Shown here in pieces: positions 13,950-21,549 of a DNA stretch of 64,000 bases (positions are counted from its first letter, which is position 1; every line of letters begins with the position of its first letter). The position numbers and the translations under genes were made by a program. The notes beneath the pieces are model-generated. The model had not been told where the DNA came from. It saw nothing but the letters and a program-made list of their open reading frames with translations, and ran no database searches. The stretch is from Actinacidiphila sp. DG2A-62 (GTDB lineage Bacteria > Actinomycetota > Actinomycetes > Streptomycetales > Streptomycetaceae), in NCBI RefSeq assembly GCF_035825295.1, contig NZ_JAYMGI010000002.1, positions 7,206,001 through 7,270,000 on the forward strand, in the 5' to 3' direction.

Positions 13950-13989
13950 TTCTACGTTCGTCCCACGGCGGGGATCTACGTGCGTAGAA
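13950..13989. promoter_or_regulatory. Three related half-sites upstream of the pyrimidine-catabolism run
   Basis: Within the 182-base leader of the nitrilase-fold gene, TTCTACG (13950-13956) and its reverse complement CGTAGAA (13983-13989) face each other. A middle copy, CTACG at 13976-13980, forms the palindrome CTACGTGCGTAG (13976-13987) with the last. They end 31 bases before ATG 14021, where a repressor or activator would control the run. The cognate regulator is not encoded in the window. Confidence 0.5.
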
Positions 13990-14020: not shown

Positions 14021-14863
14021 ATGAGCAACGTCGTGCGTGCCGCGCTGGTCCAGGCCACCTGGACCGGCGACACGGAGTCGATGATCGCCAAGCACGAGGA
14101 GCACGCCCGCGCGGCGGCCGCCCAGGGCGCCCGGGTGATCGGTTTCCAGGAGGTGTTCAACGCCCCCTACTTCTGCCAGGTCCAGGAGGCCGAGCACTAC
14201 CGCTGGGCCGAGCCGGTGCCGGACGGCCCGACGGTCCGCCGGATGCAGGCCCTGGCGAAGGAGACCGGCATGGTGATCGTCGTGCCGGTCTTCGAGATCG
14301 AGCAGTCCGGCTTCTACTACAACACCGCGGCCGTCATCGACGCCGACGGCTCCTTCCTCGGCAAGTACCGCAAGCACCACATCCCGCAGGTCAAGGGCTT
14401 CTGGGAGAAGTACTACTTCAAACCCGGCAACCTCGGCTGGCCGGTCTTCGACACCGCGGTCGGCCGCATCGGCGTCTACATCTGCTACGACCGGCACTTC
14501 CCCGAGGGCTGGCGCGCGCTGGGCCTGGCCGGCGCGCAGCTGGTCTACAACCCCTCGGCCACCAGCCGCGGCCTGTCGGCCTACCTGTGGAAGCTGGAGC
14601 AGCCCGCCGCGGCCGTCGCCAACGAGTACTTCATCGCCGCGATCAACCGGGTCGGCCGCGAGCCCTACGGCGACAACGACTTCTACGGCACCAGCTACTT
14701 CGTCGACCCGCGCGGCCAGTTCGTCGACGGCACCGCCTCCGACGACAAGGAGGAACTGTTGGTGCGCGACCTGGACTTCGGCCTGATCGAGGAGGTCCGG
14801 CAGACCTGGGCGTTCTACCGCGACCGCCGTCCCGACGCGTACGGCGACCTGACGGAGGCGTGA
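14021..14863 (+). CDS. Nitrilase-fold carbon-nitrogen hydrolase (beta-ureidopropionase-like)
   Basis: A 280-residue amidase that probably hydrolyses an N-carbamoyl compound to amine, CO2 and ammonia. The catalytic triad is visible: Glu44 in GFQEVF, Lys118 in KYRKHHIP and Cys155 in YICYDRHFPEG. The close match around the Cys and the GDNDFYGTSYFVDP segment fit N-carbamoyl-beta-alanine or N-carbamoyl-amino-acid/putrescine amidohydrolases. The next genes are an aminotransferase and dihydropyrimidinase, so N-carbamoyl-beta-alanine (from uracil) or the beta-aminoisobutyrate analogue is the best guess. ATG 14021 follows GAGGAG by 6 bases. It is first in a seven-gene same-strand run. Confidence 0.88.
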   Translation: MSNVVRAALVQATWTGDTESMIAKHEEHARAAAAQGARVIGFQEVFNAPYFCQVQEAEHYRWAEPVPDGPTVRRMQALAKETGMVIVVPVFEIEQSGFYYNTAAVIDADGSFLGKYRKHHIPQVKGFWEKYYFKPGNLGWPVFDTAVGRIGVYICYDRHFPEGWRALGLAGAQLVYNPSATSRGLSAYLWKLEQPAAAVANEYFIAAINRVGREPYGDNDFYGTSYFVDPRGQFVDGTASDDKEELLVRDLDFGLIEEVRQTWAFYRDRRPDAYGDLTEA

Positions 14864-14867
14864 GCAG

Positions 14868-16199
14868 ATGACCGCACCCACCGACCGCCACGCCGCCCTG
14901 CACGCCCGGCACCGCGCCGTGCTGCCCGACTGGCTGGCCACCTACTACGCCCGGCCGATCGAGCTGACGCACGGCGAGGGCCGGTACGTCTGGGACGCCG
15001 AGGGCACCCGCTACCTGGACTTCTTCGGCGGCATCCTCACCACGATGACCGCGCACGCGCTGCCCGAGGTCACCGCGGCGATCACCGAGCAGGCCGGGAA
15101 GATCCTGCACAGCTCCACGCTCTACCTCAGCAGCCAGGCCGTGGAGCTGGCCGAGCGGATCGCCCGGCTGTCCGGCATCCCCGACGCCCGGGTCTTCTTC
15201 ACCACCTCCGGCACCGAGGCCAACGACACCGCGCTGCTGCTGGCCACCGCCTACCGCGGCTCCAACCAGGTGCTGGCGCTGCGCAACAGCTACCACGGCC
15301 GCTCCTTCACCTCGATCGGCGTCACCGGCAACACCTCCTGGTCGCCGACCAGCCTGTCCCCGCTGCAGACGCTGTACGTGCACGGCGGGGTGCGCACCCG
15401 CGGGCCGTTCGCGCACCTGAGCGACGAGGAGTTCACCGCGGCCTGCGTGGCCGACCTGGAGGACGTGCTCGGCCAGGCCGGCGGCACCGTCGCGGCCCTG
15501 ATCGCCGAGCCGATCCAGGGCGTCGGCGGCTTCACCTCCGGGCCGGACGGGTTGCTGGCGGCGTTCAAGCAGGTGCTCGACCGGCACGGCATCCTGTGGA
15601 TCACCGACGAGGTGCAGACCGGCTGGGGCCGCACCGGCGACCACTTCTGGGGCTGGCAGGCGCACGCCCAGGCCGGTCCGCCGGACGTGCTGACCTTCGC
15701 CAAGGGCATCGGCAACGGCATGTCCATGGGCGGCGTGGTGGCCCGCGCCGAGGTGATGAACTGCCTGACCGCCAACTCCATCTCCACCTTCGGCGGCAGC
15801 CCGATCACCACCGCGGGCGCGCTCGCCAACCTCGGCTACCTGGTCGACCACGATCTGCAGGGCAACGCCCGAAGGGTCGGCGGGCTGCTCAGGTCCCGGC
15901 TCGAAGCCCTGGCCGCCGGCAGCGGCATCGTGCGCGAGGTGCGCGGCCGCGGCCTGATGCTCGGCGTCGAACTCGTCGAGCCCGGCGGCGACACCCCGTC
16001 CGCGACCGCGGCGAGCCTGGTGCTGGAGGCCGCCCGCGAGCACGGCCTGCTGATCGGCAAGGGCGGCCGGGCCGGCAACAGCCTGCGCGTCGCACCGCCG
16101 CTGACGCTGACCGTCAGCGAGGCCGAGGAGGGCGCGGAGGCGCTCGGCGCCGCACTGAAGCAGGCGGAGTCCGCGATGGAAGGAGCGACCGCCGTATGA
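14868..16199 (+). CDS. Class III PLP aminotransferase (omega/beta-alanine type)
   Basis: A 443-residue fold-type I aminotransferase. Motifs: FFGGILTTMTAHALPEV, TTSGTEANDTALLLAT, YHGRSFTSIG, the cofactor-binding Asp in WITDEVQTGWGRTG, and the Schiff-base Lys (about 279) in TFAKGIGNGMSMG. It begins 5 bases after the amidohydrolase stop and its last four bases overlap the next start (ATGA), so translation is coupled. Family members act on omega-amines, ornithine, 4-aminobutyrate or beta-alanine. In this setting beta-alanine or 3-aminoisobutyrate to the semialdehyde is the natural assignment, by inference from neighbours. A D-amino-acid or hydantoin-derived substrate cannot be excluded. Confidence 0.88.
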   Translation: MTAPTDRHAALHARHRAVLPDWLATYYARPIELTHGEGRYVWDAEGTRYLDFFGGILTTMTAHALPEVTAAITEQAGKILHSSTLYLSSQAVELAERIARLSGIPDARVFFTTSGTEANDTALLLATAYRGSNQVLALRNSYHGRSFTSIGVTGNTSWSPTSLSPLQTLYVHGGVRTRGPFAHLSDEEFTAACVADLEDVLGQAGGTVAALIAEPIQGVGGFTSGPDGLLAAFKQVLDRHGILWITDEVQTGWGRTGDHFWGWQAHAQAGPPDVLTFAKGIGNGMSMGGVVARAEVMNCLTANSISTFGGSPITTAGALANLGYLVDHDLQGNARRVGGLLRSRLEALAAGSGIVREVRGRGLMLGVELVEPGGDTPSATAASLVLEAAREHGLLIGKGGRAGNSLRVAPPLTLTVSEAEEGAEALGAALKQAESAMEGATAV

Positions 16200-17623
16200 G
16201 CACCCCGTCTTCCGGCGGCGCCGCGGCCCGCACCATCGTCCGCGGCGGCCTGGTGATCACCGCCAGCGACGAGACGCACGCCGACGTCCTGATCGAGGGC
16301 GGCCGGATCGCCGCGCTCGCCGCGCACGACAGCGACGCCGCCGCGGCCTGGACCGCCGGCGCCGTCATCGACGCCACCGGCAAGTACGTCGTCCCGGGCG
16401 GCGTCGACGCGCACACCCACATGCAGATGCCCTTCGGCGGCACCACCGCCTCCGACACCTTCGAGACCGGCACCCGCGCCGCGGCCTGGGGCGGCACCAC
16501 CACCATCGTGGACTTCGCCATCCAGAGCGTCGGCGCGAGCCTGCGCGCCGGGCTCGACGCCTGGCACGCCAAGGCCGACGGGCAGTGCGCCGTCGACTAC
16601 GGCTTCCACATGATCGTCTCCGACGTCACCGAGCACACGCTCAAGGAGATGGACGTCCTGGTCGAGGAGGGCGTCACCAGCTTCAAGATGTTCATGGCCT
16701 ACCCCGGCGTCTTCTACAGCGACGACGGCAAGATCCTCCAGGCCATGCAGCGCGCCTCCGGCAACGGCGGCCTGGTGATGATGCACGCCGAGAACGGCAT
16801 CGCCATCGACGTCCTGGTCCGGCAGGCGCTCGCCGCGGGGAAGACCGACCCGCGCCACCACGGCGAGGTGCGGCACGCGCTGCTGGAGGCCGAGGCCACC
16901 CACCGCGCGATCCAGCTCGCCCGGGTCGCCGGCTCCCCGCTGTACGTGGTGCACGTCTCCGCCGAGCAGGCCGTGGCCGAGCTGGCCGCCGCCCGCGACC
17001 TGGGCCTGCCGGTGTTCGGCGAGACGTGTCCGCAGTACCTGTTCCTGTCCACCGACGACCTGGCCGCGCCGGACTTCGAGGGCGCCAAGTACGTGTGCAG
17101 CACCCCGCTGCGCCCGCGCGAGCACCAGGCCGCGCTCTGGCGGGCGCTGCGCACCGACGACCTCCAGGTGGTCTCCACCGACCACTGCCCGTTCTGCTTC
17201 AAGGGCCAGAAGGACATGGGCGTCGGCGACTTCTCCAAGATCCCCAACGGCCTGCCCGGGGTGGAGAACCGGATGGACCTGCTGCACCAGGCCGTGGTCG
17301 ACGGCCGCATCAGCCGCCGCCGCTGGATCGAGATCGCCTGCGCCGCGCCCGCCCGGATGTTCGGCCTCTACCCGCGCAAGGGCACCCTCGCGCCGGGCGC
17401 CGACGCCGACGTGGTGGTCTACGACCCGCACGCCGAGCAGACGCTGTCGGCCGCGACCCACCACATGAACGTCGACTACAGCGCGTACGAGGGCCGCCGG
17501 ATCACCGGCCGGGTGGAGACCGTGCTCTCGCGCGGCGTCCCGGTCGTCGACCGCGGCTCCTACGTCGGACGCGCCGGACACGGCAGCTATGTGCCCCGGG
17601 CCACCTGCGGCTACCTCGACTGA
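16196..17623 (+). CDS. hydA: Dihydropyrimidinase / D-hydantoinase
   Basis: Binuclear zinc cyclic amidohydrolase that opens dihydrouracil, dihydrothymine or 5-substituted hydantoins to N-carbamoyl products; 475 residues. Metal ligands are His73 and His75 in DAHTHMQMP, the carboxylated Lys164 in TSFKMFMAYPG, histidines in MMHAENG and YVVHVSAEQ, and Asp in STDHCPF. The last segment, YSAYEGRRITGRVETVLSRG, is typical of the dihydropyrimidinase branch. The start overlaps the previous stop (ATGA), with AAGGAG 13 bases before it. The next gene starts 26 bases after the stop. Sequence alone cannot separate pyrimidine from hydantoin preference. Confidence 0.93.
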   Translation: MSTPSSGGAAARTIVRGGLVITASDETHADVLIEGGRIAALAAHDSDAAAAWTAGAVIDATGKYVVPGGVDAHTHMQMPFGGTTASDTFETGTRAAAWGGTTTIVDFAIQSVGASLRAGLDAWHAKADGQCAVDYGFHMIVSDVTEHTLKEMDVLVEEGVTSFKMFMAYPGVFYSDDGKILQAMQRASGNGGLVMMHAENGIAIDVLVRQALAAGKTDPRHHGEVRHALLEAEATHRAIQLARVAGSPLYVVHVSAEQAVAELAAARDLGLPVFGETCPQYLFLSTDDLAAPDFEGAKYVCSTPLRPREHQAALWRALRTDDLQVVSTDHCPFCFKGQKDMGVGDFSKIPNGLPGVENRMDLLHQAVVDGRISRRRWIEIACAAPARMFGLYPRKGTLAPGADADVVVYDPHAEQTLSAATHHMNVDYSAYEGRRITGRVETVLSRGVPVVDRGSYVGRAGHGSYVPRATCGYLD

Positions 17624-17649: not shown

Positions 17650-18741
17650 ATGGACTTCGGCCTCGTCCTGCAGACCGATCCGCCCGCCTGGCAGGTGGTC
17701 GACCTGATGCGCCGCGCGGAGGCCAACGGCTTCAGCCACGGCTGGACCTTCGACTCCACCGTGCTGTGGCAGGAGCCGTACGTCATCCACAGCCGCATCC
17801 TGGAACACACCGAGCGACTGGTGGTCGGCCCGATGGTCACCAACCCCGGCACCCGCGCCTGGGAGGTCACCGCCTCCACCTTCGCGACCCTCAACTCGAT
17901 GTACGGCAACCGCACCGTCTGCGGCATCGGCCGCGGCGACTCGGCGATGCGGGTGGCCGGCCGGCCGCCGAACACCCTCGCCAGACTCGGCCGGGCGATC
18001 ACCGCCGTCCGCGACCTCGCCGAGGGCCGCGAAGCGGTGGTCGACGGCACCACGATGCGGCTGCCCTGGGTGGTCGACGGCCGGCTGCCGGTGTGGATGG
18101 CGGCCTACGGGCCCAAGGCGCTGGCGATGGCCGGCGAGCTGGCCGACGGCTTCATCCTGCAACTCGCCGACGTCTTCCTCACCGAGCGGATGGTCAAGGC
18201 GGTGCGCACCGCCGCCGAGCAGGCCGGCCGCGACCCCGCCTCGGTGACCGTCTGCGTCGCCGCGCCCGCGTACGTCACCCCGGACGACACGCCCGAAGCC
18301 CTCGCACACGCCCGGGAGCAGTGCCGCTGGTTCGGCGGCATGGTCGGCAACCACGTCGCCGACCTGGTCGCGCGCTACGGCGAGCACTCCGCGCTGGTCC
18401 CCGAGGAGCTGACCGCGTACATCGCGCGCCGGCAGGGCTACGACTACGCCCACCACGGACGGACCGGCAACCCCGACACCGCCTTCGTCCCCGACGAGAT
18501 TGTGGACCGCTTCTGCCTGATCGGCCCGCCGTCGGCGCACGTCGCCAAGCTCGCCGCGCTGCGCGACCTCGGCGTCGACCAGTTCGCCGTGTACGCCATG
18601 CACGACGCCAAGGAGGCCGTCGTCGACGCCTACGGCACGCACGTCATCCCCGCCCTGAACGGTCCGGGCGCGTCCGCGAGCGGCCCGGCCGCATCCGCGG
18701 ACGGCCCCGGCACGTCCCCGAACGGTCCGCGTACGAGCTGA
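17650..18741 (+). CDS. F420-type LLM-class flavin-dependent oxidoreductase (TIGR03842-like) with heptapeptide tail
   Basis: A 363-residue TIM-barrel protein of the luciferase-like/F420 oxidoreductase class. It opens [20 protein letters not shown] and has [43 protein letters not shown] and [20 protein letters not shown]. From memory it fits the TIGR03842 subgroup, often found beside dihydropyrimidinase genes. No classical dihydropyrimidine dehydrogenase is present, so this protein may supply the redox step on the pyrimidine ring (inference). The C-terminus (18661-18738) is four units of the pattern GPxxSxx with a 21-base period, absent from the enzyme core. ATG 17650 is preceded by AAGGAACGCGCC. 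Confidence 0.8.
18661..18738 (+). repeat. 21-bp coding repeat: heptapeptide GPxxSxx at protein C-terminus
   Basis: Codons from 18661 give [21 protein letters not shown] and GPRTS, then stop. Three full units and one partial unit of 21 bases are visible. The units have diverged in sequence but keep Gly-Pro at positions 1-2 and Ser at position 5, forming a flexible tail. Confidence 0.7.
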
Positions 18742-18765
18742 CCCCGCCCGAGACGAGGTGTGCCC

Positions 18766-20280
<1,515 letters not shown>

Positions 20281-20313
20281 TTGGATGGCGGCATGGGGAA
20301 CGAGGGGACTGCG

Positions 20314-21549
20314 GTGACGGATCAGGTCGCGGTCCGCGGCGGCTCGGCCGCCGCGGCCGGCACGCTGCCCTGCGGCGTGCCCGAGGAGGTGTCCGGGCAC
20401 ATGTCCGAGCAGGCGTCCGGGGACGGGCCCGGGTACCCGGACGGGCGGTCCGGGCAGCTGCCCGGCCGGTCCGCGCGCCCGTCCTCGGGCCTGTCTGCGG
20501 ACCCGTCCTCGGGCCTGTCCGCGGACCCGTCTGCGGATCTGTCCTCGGGCCTGTCCGCGGATCTGTCCGACGAGCGGCTCGACGATCTGCTCGCCGCGGT
20601 CGAGCAGATCGTCCGCGAGGTCGCCGACGCCGAAGTCCTGCCCCGCTGGCGGCGGTTGGCCGACGCCGACATCGCGGTCAAGAACGGGCCGCACGACCTG
20701 GTGACCACCGCCGACCGGCGGGCGGAGGAACGCCTGACCGAGCGGCTCACCGCGCTGCTGCCCGGCTCCGTCGTCGTCGGCGAGGAGGCGGTCAGCGCCG
20801 ACCCCGCCGTGCTGGACCGGCTGCGCGGCGACGCCCCGGTGTGGGTGGTCGACCCGGTCGACGGCACCGCCGCGTTCGTGCGCGGCGAGGACGGCTTCGC
20901 CACGCTGGTCGCGCTGGTGGCCGGCGGCGAGCCGCTCGCGTCCTGGACCTACGCGCCGCGCCGCGGCTGGTTCGCCACCGCGCGGCGCGGCGGCGGCGCG
21001 CACCTGGACGGCCGCCCCCTGCGGACCGCGGACGAGGACCGGCCGCTGCGGCTGTGGACCTCCAACCCGGTCTTCCGCACCGGCCGCGAACGCGCCCTGC
21101 TGGCGCGGCTGGAGGACTCCGGCGCGGTCTGTGCGCCGTGCACCTGCGCGGGCCTGGCCTACCTGGACGTGGCGCGCGGGGTGTCCGACGGGGTCGCCTT
21201 CTTCTGGGAGCTGCCCTGGGACCACGCCGCCGGGCTGCTGCTGGTCGCCGAGGCGGGCGGCGCGGACCGCACGCTGGCCGGCGCGCCGTTCCGCGTCGCC
21301 GGCGGCAACGAACTGCCGTTCACCGCGGCCCGGGACGCGGCGACCGCCGCGCGGATCGTCGCGGTGCTGCACGGCGGCGAGGACGGCGCCCGGTCGGCCG
21401 CCGGGCGGCCCGCGGGGCCGGCGGGGGCGGAGGAGAACGGGGTCCGCGCGGTGGCGCGGGCGGACGGGGAGCCGGCGGCCGGGCCGTCGGACGCGGAGCA
21501 CGAGCCGGCGGGACAGCCGTCGGACGCGGACGGGGGTGGACGGCGGTGA
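20314..21549 (+). CDS. Inositol monophosphatase-fold phosphatase with Ser/Gly repeat N-terminus
   Basis: Mg2+-dependent phosphatase of the IMPase/FBPase/CysQ superfamily, 411 residues. The metal-binding motifs are [19 protein letters not shown] and, near the end, [15 protein letters not shown]. The substrate could be inositol phosphate, histidinol phosphate or PAP. GTG 20314 is preferred because GAGGGG lies 7 bases before it; ATG 20293 is in frame but has no clear site. Residues before the domain contain a 24-base-period repeat (SSGLSADP) and the last 50 residues are another low-complexity stretch. It starts 33 bases after the permease stop and ends on GTGA of the next gene. Confidence 0.83.
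20479..20565 (+). repeat. 24-bp coding tandem repeat (SSGLSADP)
   Basis: Units begin at 20479, 20503 and 20539. The first two encode PSSGLSAD exactly and the third LSSGLSAD. A 12-base partial unit (PSAD) sits between the second and third. All lengths are multiples of three, so the frame is kept. This is a recent-looking minisatellite in a disordered N-terminus. Confidence 0.8.

Follow-up and report, generated by a model that had tools for sequence, protein, structure and literature searches.

RutA, the first enzyme of a uracil pathway, is an FMN monooxygenase that opens the ring oxidatively and belongs to the LLM superfamily. To our knowledge, no LLM enzyme reduces the C=C bond of a pyrimidine. 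The reductive pathway begins instead with dihydropyrimidine dehydrogenase (PydA, PreT-PreA), and variants of PydA use either NAD(P)H or ferredoxin as donor (PMC7332683, partial text). Mycobacterium smegmatis is reported to have a reductive uracil pathway that is induced under nitrogen limitation, for which 'not all of the genes' were identified (PMC4617892, partial text). A 2021 review of F420 contains no word beginning 'uracil'. Of what F420 does in the primary metabolism of streptomycetes it says that 'virtually nothing is known'; it also lists the reason for F420 in Proteobacteria as an unanswered question and records only trace F420 in Paracoccus denitrificans (PMC8498797). None of the titles and abstracts listed in literature searches (subscription literature lay mostly outside their scope) assigned uracil reduction to the protein family TIGR03842 or to any F420 enzyme.

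The window, by which we mean the whole stretch of 64,000 nucleotides analysed, contains the gene set of a Pyd-pathway cluster (Table 1). A dihydropyrimidinase, a ureidopropionase-type amidase and an aminotransferase, all with presumed substrates, lie together at 14021-17623, and from the amidase through to the permease every gap is 26 nt or less. A member of TIGR03842 lies within this run, 26 nt after the dihydropyrimidinase and 18 nt before the permease. Thus family matches and spacing both agree with the sequence-only reading, which had noticed a tightly spaced F420-type LLM gene in a pyrimidine run. The LLM reading frame opens with ATG at 17650, 7 nt downstream of a ribosome-binding-like AAGGA, and ends with TGA at 18741 (363 amino acids). 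The ATG of the dihydropyrimidinase overlaps the aminotransferase stop as ATGA, with AAGGAG upstream; its start is placed at 16196, and searches were run on the range from 16202. An ATG at 18766 is a possible alternative start for the permease. The inositol monophosphatase gene that follows is probably outside the operon.

Table 1. Features of the gene run, in window coordinates, with the matches on which they are assigned.
Feature	Coordinates	Strand	Basis
Operator-like palindrome TCTACGTGCGTAGA	13975-13988	.	32 nt upstream of first operon gene
CN-hydrolase (nitrilase-superfamily amidase), proposed N-carbamoyl-beta-alanine amidohydrolase, PydC-like	14021-14863	+	PF00795, 235 bits
Class III omega-aminotransferase, proposed beta-alanine/3-aminoisobutyrate transaminase, PydD-like	14868-16199	+	PF00202, 283 bits; substrate inferred
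Dihydropyrimidinase (PydB)	16196-17623	+	TIGR02033, 564.5 bits (cut-off 393.25)
LLM-class protein, proposed F420H2-dependent uracil/thymine reductase	17650-18741	+	TIGR03842, 561.7 bits (cut-off 295.45)
NCS1-family nucleobase:cation symporter	18760-20280	+	TIGR00800, 438 bits (cut-off 353.1); PF02133, 449 bits
Inositol monophosphatase family gene	20281-21549		Pfam match

The operon looks like a regulated unit, because the palindrome upstream of it (TCTACG-NN-CGTAGA) is conserved in Streptomycetaceae and has a single exact site in the 8.6 Mb assembly. We tried 83 Streptomycetaceae loci, 75 of which had a CN-hydrolase homologue, and scanned the 250 bases upstream of that homologue. The palindrome was exact in 55 of the 75 loci and present with one mismatch in 2, two mismatches in 10 and three to five mismatches in 8. 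In a control with one simple shuffle per upstream region, the best site had 3 mismatches. Another genome of the same family (G023) has a PucR-type regulator within the cluster (L157 4814-6397).

The LLM protein matches TIGR03842 along the full length of the model (positions 1-329 of 329). This NCBIfam entry (F420_CPS_4043) is a hypothetical equivalog, a named model without a function. Proteins from Leisingera and Paracoccus score 506 and 503 bits on it, respectively. Residues 337-363 of the window protein (18658-18741), a repetitive Gly/Pro/Ser/Ala tail, lie beyond the match. Bac_luciferase is its sole Pfam match, and no DHO_dh domain with ferredoxin-type clusters was found in it. The nearest solved sequence is that of Mer, which is F420-dependent (104 bits), followed by FGD and Adf, and the top 10 of the 12 solved sequences matched are Mer, FGD, FGD2 and Adf. 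When a fold model was compared with known structures, ranks 1 to 26 were all F420-dependent enzymes and the first FMN monooxygenase appeared at rank 27. The alignment behind the model (pLDDT 73.7, pTM 0.81) was shallow and made up of close relatives, and the model is weakest at residues 36-41, 64-72, 91-110 and 267-275, which include likely active-site loops.

To describe conservation in the family we aligned 36 members of TIGR03842, picked from 112 for diversity, and found 55 invariant positions. These include D35, S36, W40, GxxVTNPxxR (60-69), GxGRGxS (92-98), W149, YGP (153-155), Q171, WF (227-228), N234 and YDYxxH (264-269). S36 of the window protein aligns with a His of Mer, and the Ser would represent loss of a His used in other LLM chemistry.

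In the source genome the pathway is encoded from ring opening onwards, and of the enzymes that attack the ring itself, PreA and RutA were sought and neither was found. Its one DHO_dh-fold match is a quinone-dependent PyrD (489 bits), which scores 36 bits on the PreA model against a cut-off of 335; no protein matched PreA over the model cut-off, and none matched RutA at E 1e-100 or better. The classical dihydropyrimidine dehydrogenase, which the sequence-only reading had found missing from the run and whose presence elsewhere, if needed for growth on uracil, would have counted against that reading, is therefore without a match over cut-off genome-wide. CofH is present (541 bits). The best NpdG homologue reaches 66.8 bits against a cut-off of 149.8, and Fgd had no match at E 1e-90.

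What, then, reduces the pyrimidine ring? We propose, with a probability of about 0.8, that the TIGR03842 protein catalyses the first step in the reductive breakdown of pyrimidines, as an F420H2-dependent uracil/thymine reductase. Most likely the reaction itself is a known one while the cofactor and the fold differ, which would make the protein a non-orthologous replacement of dihydropyrimidine dehydrogenase. The proposal is based on gene content, linkage, co-occurrence, the absence of PreA and RutA, and the coupling to F420 biosynthesis in Rhodobacterales; from these we infer the cofactor that is bound, the substrate, the direction and the hydride chemistry. Uracil or thymine would be imported by the NCS1 permease, and the LLM protein would bind reduced coenzyme F420. 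A hydride would pass from C5 of the deazaflavin to C6 of the pyrimidine, with a proton added at pyrimidine C5, to give dihydrouracil or dihydrothymine. The dihydropyrimidinase would then open the reduced ring, the amidase would yield beta-alanine (or 3-aminoisobutyrate) with release of NH3 and CO2, and the aminotransferase would produce (methyl)malonate semialdehyde, which in relatives with MMSDH in the cluster would be converted to acyl-CoA by that enzyme. Where NpdG exists, it would reduce F420 with NADPH.

Co-occurrence was examined in 149 actinobacterial genomes, the same set being used for TIGR03842, dihydropyrimidinase, CofH, PreA, RutA, NpdG and Fgd. TIGR03842 was over cut-off in 29 genomes with nine family labels. 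Dihydropyrimidinase was over cut-off in all 29 of these compared to 15 of the 120 others (Fisher test, p = 4e-20, uncorrected for kinship), and CofH, which marks F420 synthesis, in 27 of 29 compared to 51 of 120 (p = 3e-7, likewise uncorrected). Neither PreA nor RutA reached its cut-off in any of the 149; among 14 control genomes, each did so in 2. This is the pattern that the sequence-only reading had predicted: the LLM subgroup accompanies dihydropyrimidinase in genomes where PreA is absent. We checked the 29 genomes for TIGR03842 without F420 genes; both of those without a full CofH (G119 and G145) contain pieces of CofH interrupted at contig ends, and the idea was dropped. Against our reading, NpdG was over cut-off in just 13 of the 29; if the reading holds, the remaining genomes would have to rely on other F420 reductases. 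Fgd was found in six sampled genomes, some of which are probably mycobacterial, and in none of these was TIGR03842 over cut-off. Thus, TIGR03842 may not explain the use of uracil by M. smegmatis.

Most dihydropyrimidinases found without TIGR03842 are distant ones. Fourteen of the 15 such genomes have homologues with 33-47% identity to the protein of the window or of Leisingera; around these, on contigs several of which are short, queries for the amidase, aminotransferase, permease and PreA were unmatched. Near those of G032 and G086 there were distant LLM matches, and near that of G135 a weak match to aldehyde dehydrogenase. The dihydropyrimidinase of G123 (57% identical, no TIGR03842) is at a contig end. 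The LLM proteins of G086 and G032 (L176 9108-12517 and L165 8025-18463) are below cut-off on TIGR03842, and are possibly related enzymes for other ring substrates.

The LLM gene is closely linked to pyrimidine-pathway genes, and the arrangement is not due to chance. Among 80 Streptomycetaceae loci (the best 80 of 592 relatives), some of them on contigs that end within the locus, 78 have a dihydropyrimidinase homologue on the same strand at a distance of no more than 6 kb; for 73 of these 78, the two tblastn matches are separated by 190 nt or less. The other neighbours in the 80 loci are a CN-hydrolase (69), an aminotransferase (68) and a permease (35). One locus (L031) is interrupted by a contig end, and in one Streptomyces (L035) the LLM gene is present and its neighbours are absent. 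Across the 29 TIGR03842 genomes, a pathway gene lies on the LLM strand and no more than 8 kb away in 26 (the source and 25 of the 28 others), counting homologues of the dihydropyrimidinase, the ureidopropionase types or the aminotransferase. The exceptions are a 3.4 kb contig (G141) and two genomes in which the dihydropyrimidinase is 12 kb away (G031) or shares a contig with the LLM gene at a distance of about 50 kb (G045). Four of the genomes (G061, G087, G109 and G119) have nearby pathway genes without a dihydropyrimidinase, which was matched on other contigs.

The order and orientation of the clusters vary among lineages, and so does the ureidopropionase. Near the LLM gene it is of the CN-hydrolase type in families f1, f6, f12, f17, f26 and f32, and of the unrelated Zn-hydrolase type in f15 and f43. 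That the linkage has outlasted both rearrangement and replacement of the ureidopropionase points to a shared function.

TIGR03842 is also found outside Actinomycetota, together with the genes for its presumed cofactor. The proteobacterial evidence consists of plasmid records, mostly from ten closely related Leisingera plasmids, two of which were read over 31 kb each. On both, cofG, cofH, cofD, cofC, cofE, npdG and the TIGR03842 gene follow one another in that order. Divergent from this operon are genes for a PntA/PntB transhydrogenase, an aminotransferase, a Zn-hydrolase, a dihydropyrimidinase (hydA) and an NCS1 permease. A RutR-like regulator gene follows the LLM gene; scored on the first plasmid, the regulator had TIGR03613 as its best match with 194 bits against a cut-off of 368, which places it outside RutR proper, and its YcdC-like domain (PF08362) was over cut-off. 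Paracoccus alcaliphilus has cofGHDCE-npdG-TIGR03842 followed by an NMT1-type ABC transporter; no hydA was found in the plasmid stretch read, and this plasmid is absent from the 60 HydA plasmids listed (of 79). Overall, CofH accompanies full-length TIGR03842 on 11 of 11 proteobacterial plasmids, and npdG lies upstream of it on all three that were read (two Leisingera, one Paracoccus). In terms of genes, the path from NADPH through NpdG and F420H2 to the LLM protein is laid out as one unit on the Leisingera and Paracoccus plasmids.

In a further member of the Rhodobacterales, Qingshengfaniella, PreT-PreA takes the place of TIGR03842. Its HydA is 74% identical to that of Leisingera and its RutR-like regulator 47% identical. 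Of the HydA plasmids, 60 of 79 were listed (for PreA plasmids, 60 of 62), and the records are far from independent. Of those 60 HydA plasmids, 38 carry PreA and 11 carry TIGR03842 (ten from Leisingera, one from Streptomyces); the other 11 carry neither, and on no plasmid do the two occur together. The suggestion of the sequence-only reading that an F420-type protein is a candidate replacement for dihydropyrimidine dehydrogenase is therefore supported on genomic grounds, most strongly by the Leisingera plasmids.

Other plasmids show how cof operons associate with different LLM genes. In Variovorax (L160 3509-12475), a cof operon and npdG are found with a RidA gene, a CN-hydrolase and an LLM protein that scores 202.7 bits on TIGR03842, below cut-off; this looks like a different F420-dependent breakdown pathway. 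Sinorhizobium meliloti pSymA (L162 4556-17572) has npdG-cofD-cofC-cofH with a TIGR03619 LLM gene, a CoA-transferase, an ArgE-like deacylase and a transhydrogenase, and is a further F420-linked catabolic set. A cof operon alone is thus no pointer to pyrimidines; its combination with hydA, an amidase, an aminotransferase, an NCS1 permease and a RutR-like regulator does point to them. A Caballeronia plasmid (L114 8001-11994) has a partial TIGR03842 match (query residues 202-336) beside genes for a Zn-hydrolase, an alanine dehydrogenase and a transhydrogenase, and has the look of a cluster in decay. ABC transporters whose binding proteins are of the NMT1/THI5 type (L141 4557-8229, L112 16196-18794 and L182 8505-12064) accompany the LLM clusters of an actinobacterium and of Paracoccus as well as the PreTA cluster of Qingshengfaniella. 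These are likely to be alternative pyrimidine uptake systems.

Could the LLM protein be an oxidoreductase that uses F420 on a different cyclic ureide or pyrimidine, such as a substituted hydantoin or a 5- or N-alkylated pyrimidine, the ring of which is then opened by the same dihydropyrimidinase? The dihydropyrimidinase itself would allow this, as TIGR02033 carries the name D-hydantoinase with dihydropyrimidinase as its description, and its PDB matches are D-hydantoinase/dihydropyrimidinase entries (up to 519 bits), the nearest being named D-hydantoinase. The sub-cut-off LLM proteins near distant dihydropyrimidinase homologues in G086 and G032 also fit. However, the amidase fits less well. Its highest score in the PDB was to N-carbamoylputrescine amidase (204 bits), with beta-ureidopropionases at 180-184 bits (we take the 184-bit match, CG3027-PA, to be one) compared to 95-101 bits for D-carbamoylases. 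Being nearer to the beta-ureidopropionases than to the D-carbamoylases, it favours beta-ureido acids from dihydropyrimidines over hydantoin products. An omega-aminotransferase, whose best three solved matches are 4-aminobutyrate aminotransferases, is co-encoded, some relatives add MMSDH, and the plasmid swap partner PreT-PreA is a uracil/thymine reductase under a related RutR-like regulator. We therefore regard another ureide or pyrimidine as an unlikely substrate. The hydantoin variant that the sequence-only reading had allowed for becomes less likely on the amidase, aminotransferase and MMSDH evidence, and a hydantoin-only cluster was rejected as the main reading on these grounds together with the swap.

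A second possibility is that the LLM protein acts at the other end of the pathway, as a PydE-like, F420-dependent malonate-semialdehyde reductase or dehydrogenase, and that the ring reductase lies elsewhere, unrecognised. Several characterised F420 LLM enzymes (Adf, FGD) do act on alcohols or aldehydes, and a search of the 80 Streptomycetaceae loci at E 1e-40 gave no MMSDH homologue. In other lineages, however, MMSDH is part of the cluster: it lies between the dihydropyrimidinase and the LLM gene in four genomes (G145, where it scores 694.6 bits on TIGR01722, G091, G069 and G113), and a homologue is within about 10 kb of the LLM gene in four more (G031, G045, G042 and G058). The aldehyde step is thus covered there, and the only step left without an enzyme is ring reduction. 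PreA is over cut-off in none of the 149 genomes to supply that step, and TIGR03842 has the invariant S36 where Mer has His after Asp. On these three points an aldehyde enzyme was rejected as the main reading, and we consider it highly improbable.

An FMN-dependent monooxygenase that attacks the pyrimidine ring by an oxidative route, as RutA does, would belong to the same superfamily, and NCS1 and amidohydrolase genes are compatible with several routes. Against this, the RutA model (TIGR03612) is absent among the 19 NCBIfam matches of the window protein and RutA was over cut-off in none of the 149 genomes, the partner dihydropyrimidinase takes a reduced ring as its substrate, and the proteobacterial genes travel with CofH (11 of 11 plasmids) and, where read, npdG. 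The oxidative role was rejected on TIGR03612, the dihydropyrimidinase and this company of F420 genes, and its chances appear very slim indeed. A last alternative is that operon history has kept the gene in place as a bystander that does nothing in pyrimidine breakdown. The neighbour-less copies in L035 and G045 would suit this, but it is scarcely credible, and was rejected, given linkage that spans varied orders, orientations and non-homologous partners in several actinobacterial family labels and in Rhodobacterales.

We therefore retain the F420H2-dependent uracil/thymine reductase as the function of the LLM protein. A wider claim, which we hold to be somewhat favoured by the data, is that TIGR03842 constitutes a new F420H2-dependent class of dihydropyrimidine dehydrogenase in many Actinomycetota, that it spread to Proteobacteria with its own cofactor pathway, and that Rhodobacterales keep the F420 operon and NpdG largely for uracil and thymine breakdown. 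A complete cofactor pathway would then travel as a module with one catabolic enzyme. If correct, the reading gives a function to the uncharacterised TIGR03842 and provides the first step that reductive uracil breakdown otherwise lacks in the genomes with this family. F420 would gain a role in everyday metabolism, with an enzyme that depends on this rare cofactor replacing the usual iron-sulfur enzyme, which bears both on F420 in streptomycete primary metabolism and on the reason why Proteobacteria make it. Should Paracoccus denitrificans carry the cluster, induction of F420 by uracil is a simple prediction. An F420 enzyme that acts on pyrimidines might also serve as a biocatalyst.

How does the proposed enzyme compare with known systems? 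PydA and PreT-PreA catalyse the reaction proposed here and occupy a similar position in their clusters. They differ in being built on a DHO_dh barrel with FMN and [4Fe-4S] clusters rather than on an LLM barrel with, presumably, F420, and the window protein had no sequence match to the PydA/PreA families in NCBIfam or Pfam. Mer, a hydride-transferring F420 enzyme, is nearest to the window protein in both solved sequence and fold. It has a different substrate, shares 23-27% identity in the fold matches, and has Asp-His where TIGR03842 has Asp-Ser, while the YDYxxH motif (264-269) is invariant in TIGR03842. A parallel in the literature is the putative F420-dependent 'yanthine reductase' of Chloroflexota uric-acid clusters, also a luciferase-family protein, which is proposed to substitute for a PydA-like or YgfK reductase in a reductive N-heterocycle pathway; it is putative by name, and its substrate is derived from purines (PMC12507026, partial text).
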